Positions 4,987 to 28,561 of a DNA stretch of 36,355 bases are shown one piece after another. The translations under genes and the position numbers were made by a program. A model generated the notes under the pieces. The model made no database searches and was not told where the DNA came from. It saw only the letters and a program-made list of their open reading frames with translations. How positions within the stretch are numbered: position 1 is the stretch's first letter; each line of letters begins with the position of its first letter. Source of the DNA: Candidatus Methylomirabilota bacterium (lineage in GTDB: Bacteria > Methylomirabilota > Methylomirabilia > Methylomirabilales > 2-02-FULL-66-22); the NCBI GenBank assembly GCA_016180655.1, contig JACPAT010000119.1, positions 1 to 36,355 of the forward strand. The letters run 5' to 3'.

Positions 4987-5688
4987 GTGCTCGGGGATTG
5001 GATTCAGGCGGTCACGGGCTCCCTTTTCTGGGAATATCGCAGGATCCTCCTGTTCGGCCTGGCTACCAATTTCTACGTGTTCCTTCTCTCGGCGGTCCTG
5101 GCGATGGCCATGGGCCTGCTGGCCTGCCTGGCCCGCCTCAGCCCCCTGCGTGCCATCCGGTGGTGCGGAACCTTCTATGCGGAACTCTTCCGGAACACGC
5201 CGGAGTACGTTCTGCTGGTCTGGGTCCATTTCGTGCCGCCGTTGATCCTCACGCTGCTGCTCCGCACCAGGATCAACTTCAGCCCCCTCTTCTCTGCCGT
5301 GGTGGCCCTCGGCCTGGCCGCCAGCGGCTACTTCACCGAGACATTCCGGGCCGGCATCCAGTCCATCCCTCGCGGCCACGTCGAGGCCGCCCGCTCCACA
5401 GGATTGTCCGGCGCCCTCACCTTTCGCTGGGTGATCCTACCTCAGGCGGTCCGGAAGATGCTGCCGGAGGCCCTGAATCAGTTCATCTCTTTGTTCAAGT
5501 CCACCACCCTGGTATCCCTGATCGCGGTTCCGGACCTCATGTATCAGGTGTCCATGATCACCCAGGAGCAGATGCGGCCCATGCCCCTGTATTCCGGGGC
5601 GGCGATCATCTATTTCGTCATCATCCTGTGTCTGTCCGCGCTGGTGCGGAAGTTCAGCGAAGGCTGGCGCGCGGTCGGCCGGGCCTGA
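4987..5688 (+). CDS. Amino-acid ABC transporter permease (HisM/GltJ family)
   Basis: Multiple TM segments and EAARSTGLSGALTFRWVILPQAVRKMLPEALNQFISLFKSTTLVSLIAVPDLM, the EAA-loop signature of polar amino-acid permeases. Confidence 0.9.
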   Translation: MLGDWIQAVTGSLFWEYRRILLFGLATNFYVFLLSAVLAMAMGLLACLARLSPLRAIRWCGTFYAELFRNTPEYVLLVWVHFVPPLILTLLLRTRINFSPLFSAVVALGLAASGYFTETFRAGIQSIPRGHVEAARSTGLSGALTFRWVILPQAVRKMLPEALNQFISLFKSTTLVSLIAVPDLMYQVSMITQEQMRPMPLYSGAAIIYFVIILCLSALVRKFSEGWRAVGRA

Positions 5689-5703
5689 CCGGCACCCTGA
5701 CCC

Positions 5704-6363
5704 ATGGGAATGCTGCAGCGAATCCTCTGGAACAATCGTGGCGAATTCCTGGAAGGGCTCCTCGTCACCGCGGAGATCTCCCTGATCGCCATCGCCGTGG
5801 CCATGGCGGTCGGCCTGGTGATCTGTCTCGTCCGGATGTACTGCCGTCCGCTCCGCTGGCTGGCGCTCCTGTACATCGAGTTCTGCCGCAGTACACCCAT
5901 CTATGTCCAACTGATGTGGGTCAACTACGTGTGGCCGGAACTCTTCGGGTGGCCGCAGTCCTTTTTCGCGGCCGGCTGGGCCGCCCTGGCACTTCAGTCC
6001 AGCGGGTATCTGGCGGAAACCTTCCGATCAGGTATCGAGGGCGTTGCTCGCGGGCAGCGGGAGGCTGCCCTCTCCACGGGCCTCTCGCCCTTCCTGACCA
6101 TGCGGTGGGTCATCCTGCCGCAGGCAGTGCTGATGATGACCCCGTCGCTCATGAACCAGTTCCTGGTGGTGGTGAAGTCTTCGTGCCTGGTATCGGTGAT
6201 CGCCGTGCCCGACCTGATGTATCGGGCCCTGCGGCTCACGTCCATCTGGTTTGAACCCATCGAGATCCTTTCCTTTACGGCATTTCTGTATGTGGCCATC
6301 GTGTTCGCCCTTTCGGCGGCGATCAAATGGTATTCCGACAGGCTGCGCAGCCGGTATGCGTAG
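5704..6363 (+). CDS. Amino-acid ABC transporter permease (HisM/GltK family)
   Basis: EAALSTGLSPFLTMRWVILPQAVLMMTPSLMNQFLVVVKSSCLVSVIAVPDLMYRA. Confidence 0.9.
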   Translation: MGMLQRILWNNRGEFLEGLLVTAEISLIAIAVAMAVGLVICLVRMYCRPLRWLALLYIEFCRSTPIYVQLMWVNYVWPELFGWPQSFFAAGWAALALQSSGYLAETFRSGIEGVARGQREAALSTGLSPFLTMRWVILPQAVLMMTPSLMNQFLVVVKSSCLVSVIAVPDLMYRALRLTSIWFEPIEILSFTAFLYVAIVFALSAAIKWYSDRLRSRYA

Positions 6364-6443
6364 CGTGAGGGCCCCGTCACGCCAGCCGGAACCGGGGCCG
6401 GTGAGACACTGCATGTGGGCTCGTCCCACAGGGGGGAAACGCC

Positions 6444-7316
6444 ATGAACACGAAGCTCACGATCAGCAAACGAACCTTCATGAAGAGCGCGCTGGGGGTC
6501 GGAGGGCTTGGCCTGGCCGCCAAGCTGCTGGACGGAGTTGGATCCCCTCGGGAGGCCTATGCCCAACTCCTGGAGTCCGGGATTGACGAGAAATCTGCGT
6601 TGGCGCGAGTCAAGAAGGAGGGAAAGCTGAGGGTCGGCTATGCACAGACGCTGCCCTGGTTCCACAAGGAGGCAAAAACCGGCAGCCTGGCGGGGATCTA
6701 TTACGACGTCGCGGAGGCGTTGGCCAAGGAACTGGAGGTCAAGACGGAATACCAGGAGGTCAGTTGGGCCGATGCCACCGTTGCTCTTCGCAAGGGAGAC
6801 TTCGACGTGTTCGGCTCGTCCCTCTTCTACACCGTGCCCCGCGCCCTGGTCGTGAACTACACGGCCCCGCTGTGGCACAAGGGCCACCTGGCGGTCTCCC
6901 ACAAGGACAACGCCCGCCGCTTCAAGTCCACCGCCGATTTCAATCGACCGGATGTGACCTTCTCCATCAACGTGGGGACCCGGGAAGAACACGTCCTCAA
7001 GGTGATGTTCCCCAAGGCCAAGATCGTCACGACGTCAGGCCAGATCGTCCTGGCGGCCGAGCCCGTGCGGACAAAGAAGGCGGACCTGTGGGTGACCGGC
7101 GACCTCGACGCGCTCCTGTTCGCCAAGAAGAACAGTGCCTGGGCTCAGGTGGTTGACCCGAGCCACCCCTTCGGTCGTGGCGCCAACACTTGGGCCATCC
7201 GCTACGGCGATCCGGCGTGGAAGTTCTTCCTCGACATGTGGGTGGACAACGCGGTGGAAAGCGGGCTCGTCCAGCAGCGGTACGATTTCTACTTCAAGGA
7301 ACTCCAGGCGTCCTAG
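6444..7316 (+). CDS. Amino-acid ABC transporter substrate-binding protein
   Basis: KRTFMKSALGVGGLGLAAKL export signal; KLRVGYAQTLPWFHKEAKTGSLAGIYYDVAEALAKELEVKTEYQEVSWADATVALRKGDFDVFGSSLFYTVPRA is typical of SBP family 3. Confidence 0.88.
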   Translation: MNTKLTISKRTFMKSALGVGGLGLAAKLLDGVGSPREAYAQLLESGIDEKSALARVKKEGKLRVGYAQTLPWFHKEAKTGSLAGIYYDVAEALAKELEVKTEYQEVSWADATVALRKGDFDVFGSSLFYTVPRALVVNYTAPLWHKGHLAVSHKDNARRFKSTADFNRPDVTFSINVGTREEHVLKVMFPKAKIVTTSGQIVLAAEPVRTKKADLWVTGDLDALLFAKKNSAWAQVVDPSHPFGRGANTWAIRYGDPAWKFFLDMWVDNAVESGLVQQRYDFYFKELQAS

Positions 7317-7401
7317 CCTTGGCCCAGCACGCCTCGCAGGCGGCCCGTCGTCCTAGCGCCCGGTCGGGCGGCGGGCCGCCTCTCCATGAAAGGCCCACGA
7401 C

Positions 7402-8559
7402 ATGATCATTGACTGCCACACCCACGTGTTCCAGCACTGGGCGGGCGCCTGCGGCCACGAATCCCGGGAGATCCACTGGAAGTACATCCAGAAGAACGTG
7501 ACCCGGCCGGCCGCCAAGGTCCGCCGGGCCAGGGATGGTGCCCCGGGTGATGCCCGGGCCCTGTTCCGGGCCGGCGATAACACGTGGGCCGGTCTCCGGG
7601 ACGACATCCGGTTCCGGGTTGGACCCTTCGGGCGTCTGGAATATACCCTCGATGGCGAGGACTACTACATCCAGTACATGCCGGTGGGCATGACGCAGAT
7701 GGAGGCTCCCCCCGAGCTGCAGCTCGCCCAGATGTCCTACGTCGGTGTGGACCACTGCGTGCTCCAGACCGGGATGAACTACGGGGTGATGAATGACTAC
7801 AATGCCTTCTGCCAGCACCAGTATCCGGACAAGTTCACCGGGCTGTTCCAGGTGGATGAGCCCATGGCGGATACCCGCCGGTGGATGCAGGAGCTGGATC
7901 GGGCCCGGAACCGATTGGGACTGCGGGGGATCTACTACCAGCTCGACACCTTCAGCCGCTACGGCTTTCAATGGGCCTTTGATGATCCGCGCTTCGACGC
8001 CTTCTGGGAATCCCTCGCCCCACTCCGCATCCCCGTCTTTTTCGAGGCGTCCGCGGTGCCCGATTACGACGAGAAGAGCTACATCGCGAACATGGTGCGT
8101 CTCGACGGCGTCTTGACCCGCTTCCCCTCCATGCGATGGCTGCTCGTGATGGGCCCCCCGGTACAATTCTTCGCCAGGCACGGGAAGTGGGAGTTCCCGG
8201 ACGAGGTGGCCAGGGCCTATGGACGCGAGAACCTGCAGCTGGAGATCATGTTCCCCATCACCTGGGGGGGACTGTGGGAGTACCCGTACCCGGAGGCGCA
8301 GGCCCTCATCCAGGACCTCCGCAACCGCTACGGCGCGCAGAAGCTTCTCTGGGGCTCCGACATGCCCAACGTCGAGCGATTCTGCACCTACCGCCAATGC
8401 CTGGACTACCTGCGGAAGCACTGCGACTTCTTGAGTGCCCACGAGAAGGACCTGATTCTCGGCCGGAACGTGGCGGAACTCTGCGGGATCGGCAGGGAGC
8501 CATCCGCATCCGGCACTGGGGCGGTTTTTTTCCAGTCACGAGGAGAGAGAAGCCCATGA
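7402..8559 (+). CDS. Amidohydrolase family protein (amidohydrolase_2-like)
   Basis: Starts MIIDCHTHVFQHW; downstream GAQKLLWGSDMPNVERFCTYRQ and ILGRNVAEL, typical of amidohydrolase-2. Confidence 0.85.
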   Translation: MIIDCHTHVFQHWAGACGHESREIHWKYIQKNVTRPAAKVRRARDGAPGDARALFRAGDNTWAGLRDDIRFRVGPFGRLEYTLDGEDYYIQYMPVGMTQMEAPPELQLAQMSYVGVDHCVLQTGMNYGVMNDYNAFCQHQYPDKFTGLFQVDEPMADTRRWMQELDRARNRLGLRGIYYQLDTFSRYGFQWAFDDPRFDAFWESLAPLRIPVFFEASAVPDYDEKSYIANMVRLDGVLTRFPSMRWLLVMGPPVQFFARHGKWEFPDEVARAYGRENLQLEIMFPITWGGLWEYPYPEAQALIQDLRNRYGAQKLLWGSDMPNVERFCTYRQCLDYLRKHCDFLSAHEKDLILGRNVAELCGIGREPSASGTGAVFFQSRGERSP

Positions 8560-9680
8560 GCACGCGACCCGCCGCCGAAGTCGGCATGCCCCTGGATGCC
8601 GTGGACACTCCCGCCCTCTTGCTGGACCTCGACGCCTTCGAGCGGAACATCGCGCGCCTGGCGGGGGCCGTGGCCGATACCGGCGTCCGCCTGCGCCCCC
8701 ACGCCAAGAGCCATAAGTGCCCCGTGATTGCATTGCGCCAGATGGCCAGCGGGGCGGTGGGGGTCTGCTGCCAGAAAGTGAGCGAGGCCGAGGCCATGGT
8801 TTACGGCGGAGTCCCCGACGTCCTGGTGAGCAACCAGATTGTGGGGGCGCCCAAGATCGCGCGCCTGGTCGCGCTCGCCAAGCAGGCGCGCGTGGCGGTG
8901 TGCGTGGACGACGCCGCCAACGTGGCCGCCCTGAGCGAGGCCGCCAGTGCCTTCGGTGTGCGCCTGCCGGTCCTGATCGAGGTCAACGTGGGGGCGGAGC
9001 GCTGCGGCGTCGAGCCGGGCGAACCGGCCCTCGCCCTGGCCAAACAGATTGCCGCATCGCCGGGGTTACGGTTCGGGGGGCTGCAGGCCTACCAGGGCGC
9101 CGCCCAGCACATCCGGGACTATACCAAGCGGAAGGGGGCCATTGACGCGGCGGGAGAGAAGACCCGCCGAACCGTGGAGATGCTCGGGCACCACGGCCTG
9201 GCCTGCGATGTCGTCTCGGGAGCGGGAACCGGGACCTATCGATTCGAATCGGCCAGCGGAATCTGGAATGAGCTCCAGGCCGGCTCCTACATCTTCATGG
9301 ATGCCGACTATCTGCAGAATCTTGGGCCCGACGGGAAACCGGGAGGCGAGTTCGAGCAGAGCCTCTTCGTGTACGCCACGGTCATGAGCCGGCCGACCAA
9401 GGATCGAGCCGTCCTGGATGCGGGACTCAAGGCCTTGAGCGTGGATTCGGGGATGCCACGGGTGGCCGGCATGCAGGACGTGGAGTACATCCGGGCCTCC
9501 GACGAGCACGGCAAGCTCACGCTTCACGATCCCGGTCGCGTCCTCTCCGTGGGGAGCAAGCTGCGTCTCATCCCCGGGCACTGCGACCCCACAGTCAATC
9601 TGTATGACTGGTATGTGTGCTACCGGGGAAACCGGGTCGAGGCCCTCTGGCCCATCACCGCGCGCGGGGCCATCCTCTGA
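8556..9680 (+). CDS. PLP-dependent D-threonine aldolase/3-hydroxy-D-aspartate aldolase-like (DSD1 family, alanine racemase N-terminal fold)
   Basis: DTPALLLDLDAFERNIARLAG...VRLRPHAKSHKCPVIALRQ...GVCCQKVSEAEAM...GIWNELQAGSYIFMDADY...LRLIPGHCDPTVNLYDWYVC. ATGA overlap with the upstream gene. Confidence 0.88.
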   Translation: MSTRPAAEVGMPLDAVDTPALLLDLDAFERNIARLAGAVADTGVRLRPHAKSHKCPVIALRQMASGAVGVCCQKVSEAEAMVYGGVPDVLVSNQIVGAPKIARLVALAKQARVAVCVDDAANVAALSEAASAFGVRLPVLIEVNVGAERCGVEPGEPALALAKQIAASPGLRFGGLQAYQGAAQHIRDYTKRKGAIDAAGEKTRRTVEMLGHHGLACDVVSGAGTGTYRFESASGIWNELQAGSYIFMDADYLQNLGPDGKPGGEFEQSLFVYATVMSRPTKDRAVLDAGLKALSVDSGMPRVAGMQDVEYIRASDEHGKLTLHDPGRVLSVGSKLRLIPGHCDPTVNLYDWYVCYRGNRVEALWPITARGAIL

Positions 9681-9781
9681 CCCACCGCCGCACACCCGCA
9701 CCAGCCGGTACTCCCGTGGGGGCCGGATCCATGCAGTTCGGGGTCAGGCCTTGCTACCCCGATCGAACGGAGATGCACCCG

Positions 9782-25554: not shown

Positions 25555-25641
25555 GCCGAAGTGGCGGAACTGGTAGACGCGCTACGTTCAGGGCGTAGTG
25601 GGGGTTCCCCCGTGGGGGTTCGAGTCCCCCCTTCGGCACCA
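25555..25641 (+). tRNA. tRNA-Leu (anticodon CAG), CCA encoded
   Basis: GCCGAAG...CTTCGGC acceptor stem, A discriminator and CCA; anticodon arm CTACG-TTCAGGG-CGTAG; long variable arm; T arm GGGGGTTCGAGTCCCCC. Confidence 0.95.
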
Positions 25642-26783: not shown

Positions 26784-27428
26784 TCACTTTCGCTCTCTCG
26801 CGTCGCCCGGGTCGTGCCGGGAGCGCGTGGGTTCAAGCGTCAGGGGGACCGGGTATTCGGCGATCGTGCCCGCGATCCCCTCGCTGCCGATCACATCCTG
26901 CACCACCACGTAGGCCCGCACCTTCTCCAGGATCTCCCGATCAATGGCGGCCTGCAGGGCCTCGGGGTCCCCGCGCTCCTCGTCAACGACCTCGACCAGG
27001 GGCAGCTCCCAGGTCTGCCGGTGGGGCGCGAAGGCATCCAGGCGGCAGAGGATCCCCCGCCGCCGGTTCACCAGCAGCGCCACCCAGAAATCCCCGGGCA
27101 GGCTTCCGATGGTGGCGCAGTCGGTCTGGCTCCAGATCAGGTCCATGTCGGCGTGGCTGTGCCACCACACGCGCACGCTCGCCACGTCTCCCCCCTCCGC
27201 CACGACGCGACCGAGGCACTCGAAGAGGGCGTCGGCGTCCAGTTCGGTGTCCGAGGCCGAGACCTTCTGGGACAGGAGGAACAGGTCGGTGATCAGGAGC
27301 CCCTCGCCATCCTCCTCCACGCTGCCGAGCCCCCCGATCTCCACCGGGCAGCGCTCCGCGTACAGGAGCAGCTTGTCCACAGCCCGGCGCCGGATCCGGA
27401 TCTCCCGGGGGGGGAGTGGCAGGGTCAC
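26784..27428 (-). CDS. JAB/MPN (JAMM) metalloprotease domain protein
   Basis: PVEIGGLG...VWWHSHADMDLIWSQTD matches the JAMM motif E...HxHx(7)Sx(2)D exactly (27120-27161). GTG start at 27428 overlaps the stop of the upstream gene (GTGA). Confidence 0.85.
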   Translation of the reverse strand: MTLPLPPREIRIRRRAVDKLLLYAERCPVEIGGLGSVEEDGEGLLITDLFLLSQKVSASDTELDADALFECLGRVVAEGGDVASVRVWWHSHADMDLIWSQTDCATIGSLPGDFWVALLVNRRRGILCRLDAFAPHRQTWELPLVEVVDEERGDPEALQAAIDREILEKVRAYVVVQDVIGSEGIAGTIAEYPVPLTLEPTRSRHDPGDARERK

Positions 27429-28561
27429 GGGGAGACCTCCGCCCAGAACGTCACGGCCTTGCGCCAATCGGCCGGGTTCACCGTCCTGAGGTACTGGAGC
27501 AGCACCTCGGTGGCGGCGGCGAATTCACGCTGGCCCAGGAGGCGCTGGACCCATTCCTGGATGTTGCCCAGACAGGCGCGCCCGTTCTCGACATGGGGGT
27601 GATCGTAGGTCTCGTACCGGTCGGTCAAATTCCGGAGAAAGACCCGCCCATCGAAATGGAGATCCAGGCGGAACCGTCCCAGCCGATAGAGCCGGAAGCC
27701 GTATTCGATGACGATGGGCTCGGTGAACACCTGCAGGGCCTCGTCGCTGACCCGGACCTCGACCACCCCGGGAAGGCTGGCGATGCGATCGAAGTCCCGC
27801 TCGAGCGCATCGGGCACCGCCTGGTACTGCTCGAGCTCCGACAGGCGTCGTTGGCCTCTGAGCAACCGGTGCTCCAGGTCGCGCATCTGGCGCCCGGACG
27901 TGCGGAGGTTGACCTCCAGTTCCGGGAGCTCCGCCTCCAGCGCCCCGGCCTCGATCCCCGACGCCTGGCCCTGCTCCGGGCGGCGCGCGCGCCAGAGGGC
28001 CGAGGCCCGCAGTCCTTCCATCTCCGTGGCCTGGCGGAGGCGACGCAGCCGGGCCTCGAGCGTGGCCGGACCCAGCCCCGTCAGCGCGGGCAGGAGGCTG
28101 TATCCCCCTTCCAGGCTCAGATCCAGGATCGCCCGCCCGAGGAGACGGGCGACGGGCGGCTCCTGCCCCAGGAGGTCGAAGAGCACGTACACGTCCGTCC
28201 CCAGGAGGAGGCCGACCGTCTGTCCCTCGCCATCCTGGAGGGGACGCCCCCAGCGGTTCCGGCCCGTGACGCTCCAGGCCGCTCGCCGCCCCAGTGACAG
28301 GGCGTACCCGCAGACCGCTGGAAACGTGGTGGGGCGGACCTCTGGCCCCAGCCCGAGCCATCCTGGGCGCCCCGGGAGCGCGAAGGGATGCAGGTACCAT
28401 CCCCGCCGTCCCCGCGGACGCACGACGCGGCGGCGCGAAATCTCCACGCACACCGGCACACCCAGGGCCTCCGTGTATTCGGCGAGAACGGGAGACAGCG
28501 CCTCGAGGCTCGCCTCGATGGGTCGGGAGATCTCGGGTTTCGGATCAGGCTGGGTCGTCAT
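27425..28561 (-). CDS. E2 (ubiquitin-conjugating)-like fold protein with uncharacterised N-terminal region and coiled coil
   Basis: C-terminal region FRLDLHFDGRVFLRNLTDRYETYDHPHVENGRACLGNIQEWVQRLLGQREFAAATEVLLQYLRTVNPADW resembles the E2 core (HPxV...G..CLxxI..W...VL..L....NPxD); candidate active Cys330 (codon 27572-27574). Confidence 0.7.
   Translation of the reverse strand: MTTQPDPKPEISRPIEASLEALSPVLAEYTEALGVPVCVEISRRRVVRPRGRRGWYLHPFALPGRPGWLGLGPEVRPTTFPAVCGYALSLGRRAAWSVTGRNRWGRPLQDGEGQTVGLLLGTDVYVLFDLLGQEPPVARLLGRAILDLSLEGGYSLLPALTGLGPATLEARLRRLRQATEMEGLRASALWRARRPEQGQASGIEAGALEAELPELEVNLRTSGRQMRDLEHRLLRGQRRLSELEQYQAVPDALERDFDRIASLPGVVEVRVSDEALQVFTEPIVIEYGFRLYRLGRFRLDLHFDGRVFLRNLTDRYETYDHPHVENGRACLGNIQEWVQRLLGQREFAAATEVLLQYLRTVNPADWRKAVTFWAEVSP

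Follow-up and report, generated by a model that had tools for sequence, protein, structure and literature searches.

We find that two overlapping genes encoding an E2-like protein and a JAMM/JAB metalloprotease, present in a 36,355-nucleotide stretch of DNA (the window, by which we mean the whole of this stretch), are likely to be one half of a reversible ubiquitin-like protein (Ubl) conjugation system that is split over two loci. The pair sits on contig C55 of a 3.87-Mb MAG (genome G000; 82% complete; Methylomirabilota/NC10), and contig C193 of the same genome carries, by gene calling, consecutive genes for a second E2, an E1 and a Ubl. An initial annotation of the window saw no E1 or Ubl beside the pair, and proposed either a minimal variant or a system relying on a distant E1 and Ubl. 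Neither gene is indeed present in the window, and genome-wide alignment searches for E1 and Ubl matched the C193 copies only. The second proposal is thus the one that stood, with an E1, a GG-ending Ubl and a second E2 on C193, and a minimal system without E1 and Ubl was rejected, since both are present in the same genome. What we describe is probably a conserved, reversible Ubl conjugation system, encoded at two loci, whose E2 family is unrecognised by the libraries used. The features of both loci are collected in Table 1.

Table 1. Features of the E2-JAB pair in the window and of its candidate partners on contig C193
Feature	Position	Strand	Details
E2-like gene	27425-28561	minus	ATG start, 378 aa
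N-terminal domain, residues 1-160	28082-28561	minus	conserved, no recognised family; alpha/beta in full model
Helical coiled-coil region, residues 165-248	27818-28069	minus	
Stretch folded as E2 core, residues 241-378	27425-27841	minus	AlphaFold pLDDT 86.5, pTM 0.81
Predicted active site, His321-Pro-His323 through Cys330 codons	27572-27601	minus	invariant in 22 homologues
GTGA stop/start overlap	27425-27428	minus	JAMM GTG start shares bases with E2-like stop
JAMM/JAB metalloprotease gene	26784-27428	minus	GTG start, 214 aa
JAMM metal-binding motif HSH-x7-S-x2-D	27120-27161	minus	partner Glu30 at 27339-27341
Second E2	C193 8359-9534		391 aa; 40% identical to window E2
ThiF-type E1	C193 7734-8393		219 aa; found by ThiF search of assembly
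ThiS/SAMP2-like Ubl	C193 7466-7705		79 aa; C-terminus VPKIRGG-CA

Our analysis of the pair confirmed the two open reading frames and their GTGA junction as initially reported. The open reading frame listing offers a longer TTG start for the JAMM gene, and its homologues begin at the GTGA overlap. A 4-bp GTGA or ATGA (RTGA) overlap is present in all 11 linked E2-JAB pairs, found in families f1, f2, f3, f4 and f8 and in one f7 genome, and because it is kept in every one of these pairs we do not attribute it to chance. Like the initial annotation, we predict from this overlap that the two genes are translationally coupled. Both genes are under purifying selection, with dN/dS values of 0.19 for the E2-like gene and 0.23 for the JAB gene, and 0.15 for the neighbouring galT, when compared with a congener at 77% identity; across pairs with 67-77% identity, dN/dS ranges from 0.19 to 0.25.

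In the model of the full-length E2-like protein (mean pLDDT 77), an alpha/beta domain at the N-terminus is followed by a long coiled coil and then by a C-terminal domain, and the core modelled alone shows a helix, a beta meander, the HPH motif, the Cys loop and two helices, i.e., a UBC-like order. When all PDB chains were searched, the best fold matches were UBE2L6 and UbcH8 for the full model and UbcH7 for the core, with E values of 0.04-0.09 at best and TM-scores up to about 0.45, which are not significant alone. A profile alignment against four human E2s spans 85 collinear columns and matches the catalytic Cys positions to each other and HPH to HPN (E 0.015); this score was equalled by 6 of 400 column shuffles, the top four of which span only 8-34 columns. 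A UBC fold is backed by the confident core model, the human-E2 matches in the PDB and the profile alignment, each of which is weak alone. No model in Pfam, PADLOC or NCBIfam matches the protein, PDB sequence searches with it returned coiled coils or noise only, and a Prok-E2_B search gave 0 matches in the phylum, a result that carries no information since the control genomes were silent too. The E2 motif quoted in the initial annotation is present, and H321, P322, H323, C330, L331, G332 and W366 are invariant in 22 E2 homologues. None of the outcomes that the annotation had named as refuting its reading was seen, with Cys330 invariant, a UBC-like topology in the core model, and the two genes linked in relatives. 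We regard the E2 assignment as likely, not proven, resting as it does on the fold evidence, on the conserved H321, H323 and C330, and on the company of E1, Ubl and JAB genes.

The JAMM motif quoted for the second gene also holds up, since its glutamate, HSH, serine and aspartate are intact in every one of the 19 intact JABs that were called, which represent 18 distinct loci. The window JAB scores under the cut-off for Pfam Prok-JAB (the best member of its family reaches 2.2e-4), and its nearest solved structure in a profile search is the archaeal deubiquitinase CsRpn11 (1.9e-4). JABs of the window family also occur remote from E2 in genomes with E2 loci (L080, L081, L082, L083, L084, L085 and L086); these lie in a few recurring gene settings, and one is in G029, where no E2 was found.

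The C193 partners answer to the searches that had been proposed at the outset, for a ThiF/E1 and for a small GG-ending protein. The E1 matches Pfam ThiF (1.3e-24), and in its family, with lengths of 215-226 aa, the GCGGIG ATP site and the active Cys in PCTA/SCTA are invariant. The Ubl matches Pfam ThiS (3.8e-6), its family profile matches PF1061 (1.2e-6) and SAMP2 (2.8e-6) in the PDB, and KI[RK]GG is present in every Ubl aligned (77-83 aa). No RING-type E3 was identified. A ThiS-like Ubl could belong to a sulfur-carrier or other small-molecule pathway, in which it would form a thiocarboxylate and the "E2" would be an acceptor enzyme, as in CysO/Mec+ or MoaD/MoaE chemistry, and there are indeed small ThiF enzymes and JAB proteases with roles in such pathways (Iyer 2006, PMC1779556). 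We consider this improbable, since a separate, ordinary sulfur-carrier cluster is present on contig C24, with CysM-type synthases, MoaD-like proteins, a MoeB-like E1 and its own JAB, whereas the C193 E1 is without a rhodanese domain, no sulfur gene is linked, and E2-like motifs would be unexpected in such a pathway. The genes of the C24 cluster (L091, G000:C24:8000-22000) lie at about 5441-9771, and its MoeB-like protein has a fused Ubl-like N-terminus.

Our survey of 95 genomes of the phylum showed that the E2 profile matches 21 of them, with the match in G005 confined to the N-terminus, and that E1 is present in 16, all 16 of which also carry E2. A strong Ubl is found in these 16 E1 genomes and in G005. 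Those E2 genomes without E1 (G003, G023, G025 and G058) have an incomplete assembly or an E2 at a contig edge, and every f3 and f4 genome searched has E2. In addition, a wider contig scan with a single query sequence returned only three near relatives, those with names being Candidatus Methylomirabilota/NC10 MAGs. Three layouts are seen. The first is a single E2-JAB-E1-Ubl operon, as in G007, G013 and G092, and also in G019 (Ubl at C292:156-386); complete four-gene operons of this kind occur in relatives from three other families. The link to prokaryotic Ubl systems made in the initial annotation is supported. The second is E2-E1-Ubl with the JAB remote or absent, and the third comprises two loci, E2-JAB and E2-E1-Ubl, as in the window's own genome and in G001, G012, G018 and G025 (E1 cut by the contig end). 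For example, in G012 the E2-JAB locus is located mid-contig, about 17 kb from both ends, and E1 and Ubl are found on another contig only.

Two further observations concern particular genomes and neighbours of this order. The E2-JAB genes and the sizes of their flanking genes are nearly identical in L044 (G058:C51) and L075/L076 (G092), despite the assignment of these genomes to families f7 and f8; G058 is the only f7 genome with E2, and the likeness would stem from contamination of a MAG or from a recent transfer. Pairs of adjacent 20S proteasome alpha/beta-like genes have a patchy distribution across the order, and a link to the 20S proteasome was rejected, as these pairs do not track the E2 system; G018 (99% complete) has both E2 loci, yet a single match of HslV kind.

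In the two-locus genomes E2 and JAB are always apart from E2, E1 and Ubl, and our analysis of E2 history bears on what this separation may mean. Recent in-paralogy of the window E2 and the C193 E2 is disfavoured (AU p 0.043). The window clade has a long branch in the E2 tree, where its grouping with E2s from other E2-JAB loci is weak (53/64), and E2-E1-Ubl copies from families f1 and f3 group together. An old E2 duplication followed by a division of labour is plausible, and the two E2s might differ in purpose. The same separation, long branch and weak grouping, and the evidence against recent in-paralogy, would also suit a window pair that acts as a de-conjugating or editing arm. Its E2 would then no longer be charged with Ubl, but would use its UBC fold to hold Ubl, or an E2 loaded with it, and so offer conjugates to the JAMM protease, with the C193 E2 conjugating. 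We think this unlikely, as none of the E2-JAB copies has lost the catalytic Cys or either His, and the one E2 of single-locus genomes must do everything. As a tentative possibility, there may be two specialised E2 paralogues at unlinked loci, one for E1/Ubl-coupled conjugation and one for deubiquitinase-coupled editing, of an E2 family sequence-unrelated to known ones.

The C-terminus of the Ubl provides a candidate connection between the two loci. All 11 genomes with Ubl residues beyond GG carry a JAB of the window family, and in G008, G015 and G021, which have E2 but no such JAB, the Ubls end exactly at GG. This association (Fisher p 0.03) leans mostly on one family without JAB, to which all three JAB-less genomes belong. 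Since the C193 Ubl has a two-residue tail, and since the source genome has no JAB of this family besides the window gene, we predict that the window JAB matures the distant Ubl. At the window locus of the congener G005 (L030:2570-3424, METI01000002.1), E2 residues 1 to about 110 are fused in frame to the JAB near a 13-bp repeat, AGGATGGCGAGGG, of which the window pair has two copies (28224-28236 and 27301-27313), and at the other locus of this genome (L077) the Ubl is kept and E1 and E2 are lost. Loss at both loci fits one system, and an assembly error is possible.

Based on homology, we infer the following mechanism for a system split between the window and C193. The C193 E1 would adenylate the Gly-Gly end of the 79-aa Ubl and then hand the Ubl, from the active Cys of its PCTA/SCTA motif, to an E2. 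The window E2, if it uses the C193 E1 and Ubl, would be charged with the Ubl through a thioester at Cys330, which lies in its C-terminal UBC-like core, and its N-terminal domain and coiled coil may select the target or assemble a complex. The coupled JAMM protease would cut the two extra residues after the Ubl Gly-Gly (RGG-CA), and would also strip the Ubl from targets.

The surroundings of the pair bear on the role of such a system. Its same-strand neighbours are galT upstream and a gene for a SurA/parvulin-type protein downstream, and we counted galT, the parvulin and a kinase/pyrophosphorylase as housekeeping. A tRNA-Leu (CAG) gene is located at 25555-25641 on the plus strand, past the 3′ end of the parvulin gene and opposite to it. 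The neighbours in other genomes, likewise counted as housekeeping, are genes that we take to be a DUF2203-like gene and an NTPase. Searches of plasmids, phages and viral contigs gave no matches, including none for the E2 on plasmids, and a mobile-element or phage origin was rejected on this basis. These chromosomal housekeeping surroundings, together with the lack of matches in phages, viruses and plasmids, favour a role in regulation or quality control rather than in mobile phage defence. Defence against phages in the manner of Bil or CBASS would be consistent with the same four components being present in Bil (PMC11354881), and the E1 scores against the PADLOC E1-E2 and BilD models, as is expected of any ThiF protein. 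We regard defence as highly improbable, given that PADLOC returns no meaningful E2 or Ubl match and a JAB match of just E 0.01-0.03, that the neighbours are housekeeping genes, that plasmids, phages and viral contigs gave no match, and that the system is conserved across whole families, e.g., in all f3 and f4 genomes searched.

Comparison with described systems indicates where this one differs. Searching the literature for ubiquitin in Methylomirabilota, and for bacterial E2s among MAGs, brought up nothing relevant, and among operon types 6a-6e, in the portion of Iyer 2006 consulted (PMC1779556), none has the E2-JAB-E1-Ubl combination found here. One comparable system is the PRTRC cassette of plasmids, which is probably operon type 6d of that paper, with the Ubl PRTRC_C, the E2-like PRTRC_B, the JAB PRTRC_A and a ThiF protein. 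Both systems have the order E2-JAB-E1 with tight or overlapping junctions, a standalone ThiF homologous over its full length (hhalign 4.8e-17, 195 columns), and a G.xC.G loop in the E2, the PRTRC_B query being confirmed by the annotations of its matches. In hhalign comparisons, however, the E2 match is limited to this 10-residue loop, the E2 N-terminus is dissimilar, the Ubl has no similarity to PRTRC_C, and the JAB match is weak. PRTRC moreover resides on plasmids and is accompanied by ParB, E and F genes, none of which was seen linked in our gene-called loci, and membership was rejected since the Ubl, the E2 N-terminus and the ParB/E/F partners disagree.

Bil (BilABCD) shares the four activities Ubl, E2, JAB and E1 (PMC11354881), but BilA has two Ubl domains, BilD has inactive and active adenylation domains and a Cys domain, and BilB has a CEHH motif (PMC11354881), whereas here a single small Ubl, a small E1 and HPH..C in the E2 are present. 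CBASS Cap2/Cap3 has an E1-E2 fusion and a cGAS-like nucleotidyltransferase, whereas E1 and E2 are separate genes here and no linked nucleotidyltransferase was recognised; both Bil and CBASS membership were rejected by architecture. The archaeal SAMP system is similar in that SAMP2 and its relative PF1061 are the nearest PDB matches of our Ubl, and in having a JAMM protease, although SAMP conjugation works without an E2 (PMC11354881). The Caldiarchaeum ubiquitin operon (Ub, E1, E2, RING and Rpn11) encodes a Ub precursor from which the residues after Gly-Gly are removed (PMC6043591). Its Rpn11-like JAMM protein represents the nearest solved relative of our JAB, but this operon is archaeal, with a eukaryote-like E2 and a RING E3 of a kind we did not identify here.

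The present system adds to these an E2 family unrecognised by Pfam, NCBIfam and PADLOC, and a compact, apparently chromosomal four-gene Ubl system in Methylomirabilota, in which, owing to the split between E2+JAB and E2+E1+Ubl, five small proteins would be enough for a direct test of E2 specialisation. The bacterial systems studied so far are mostly tied to phage defence or plasmids; the system described here looks like housekeeping, and could reveal bacterial Ubl tagging outside immunity.
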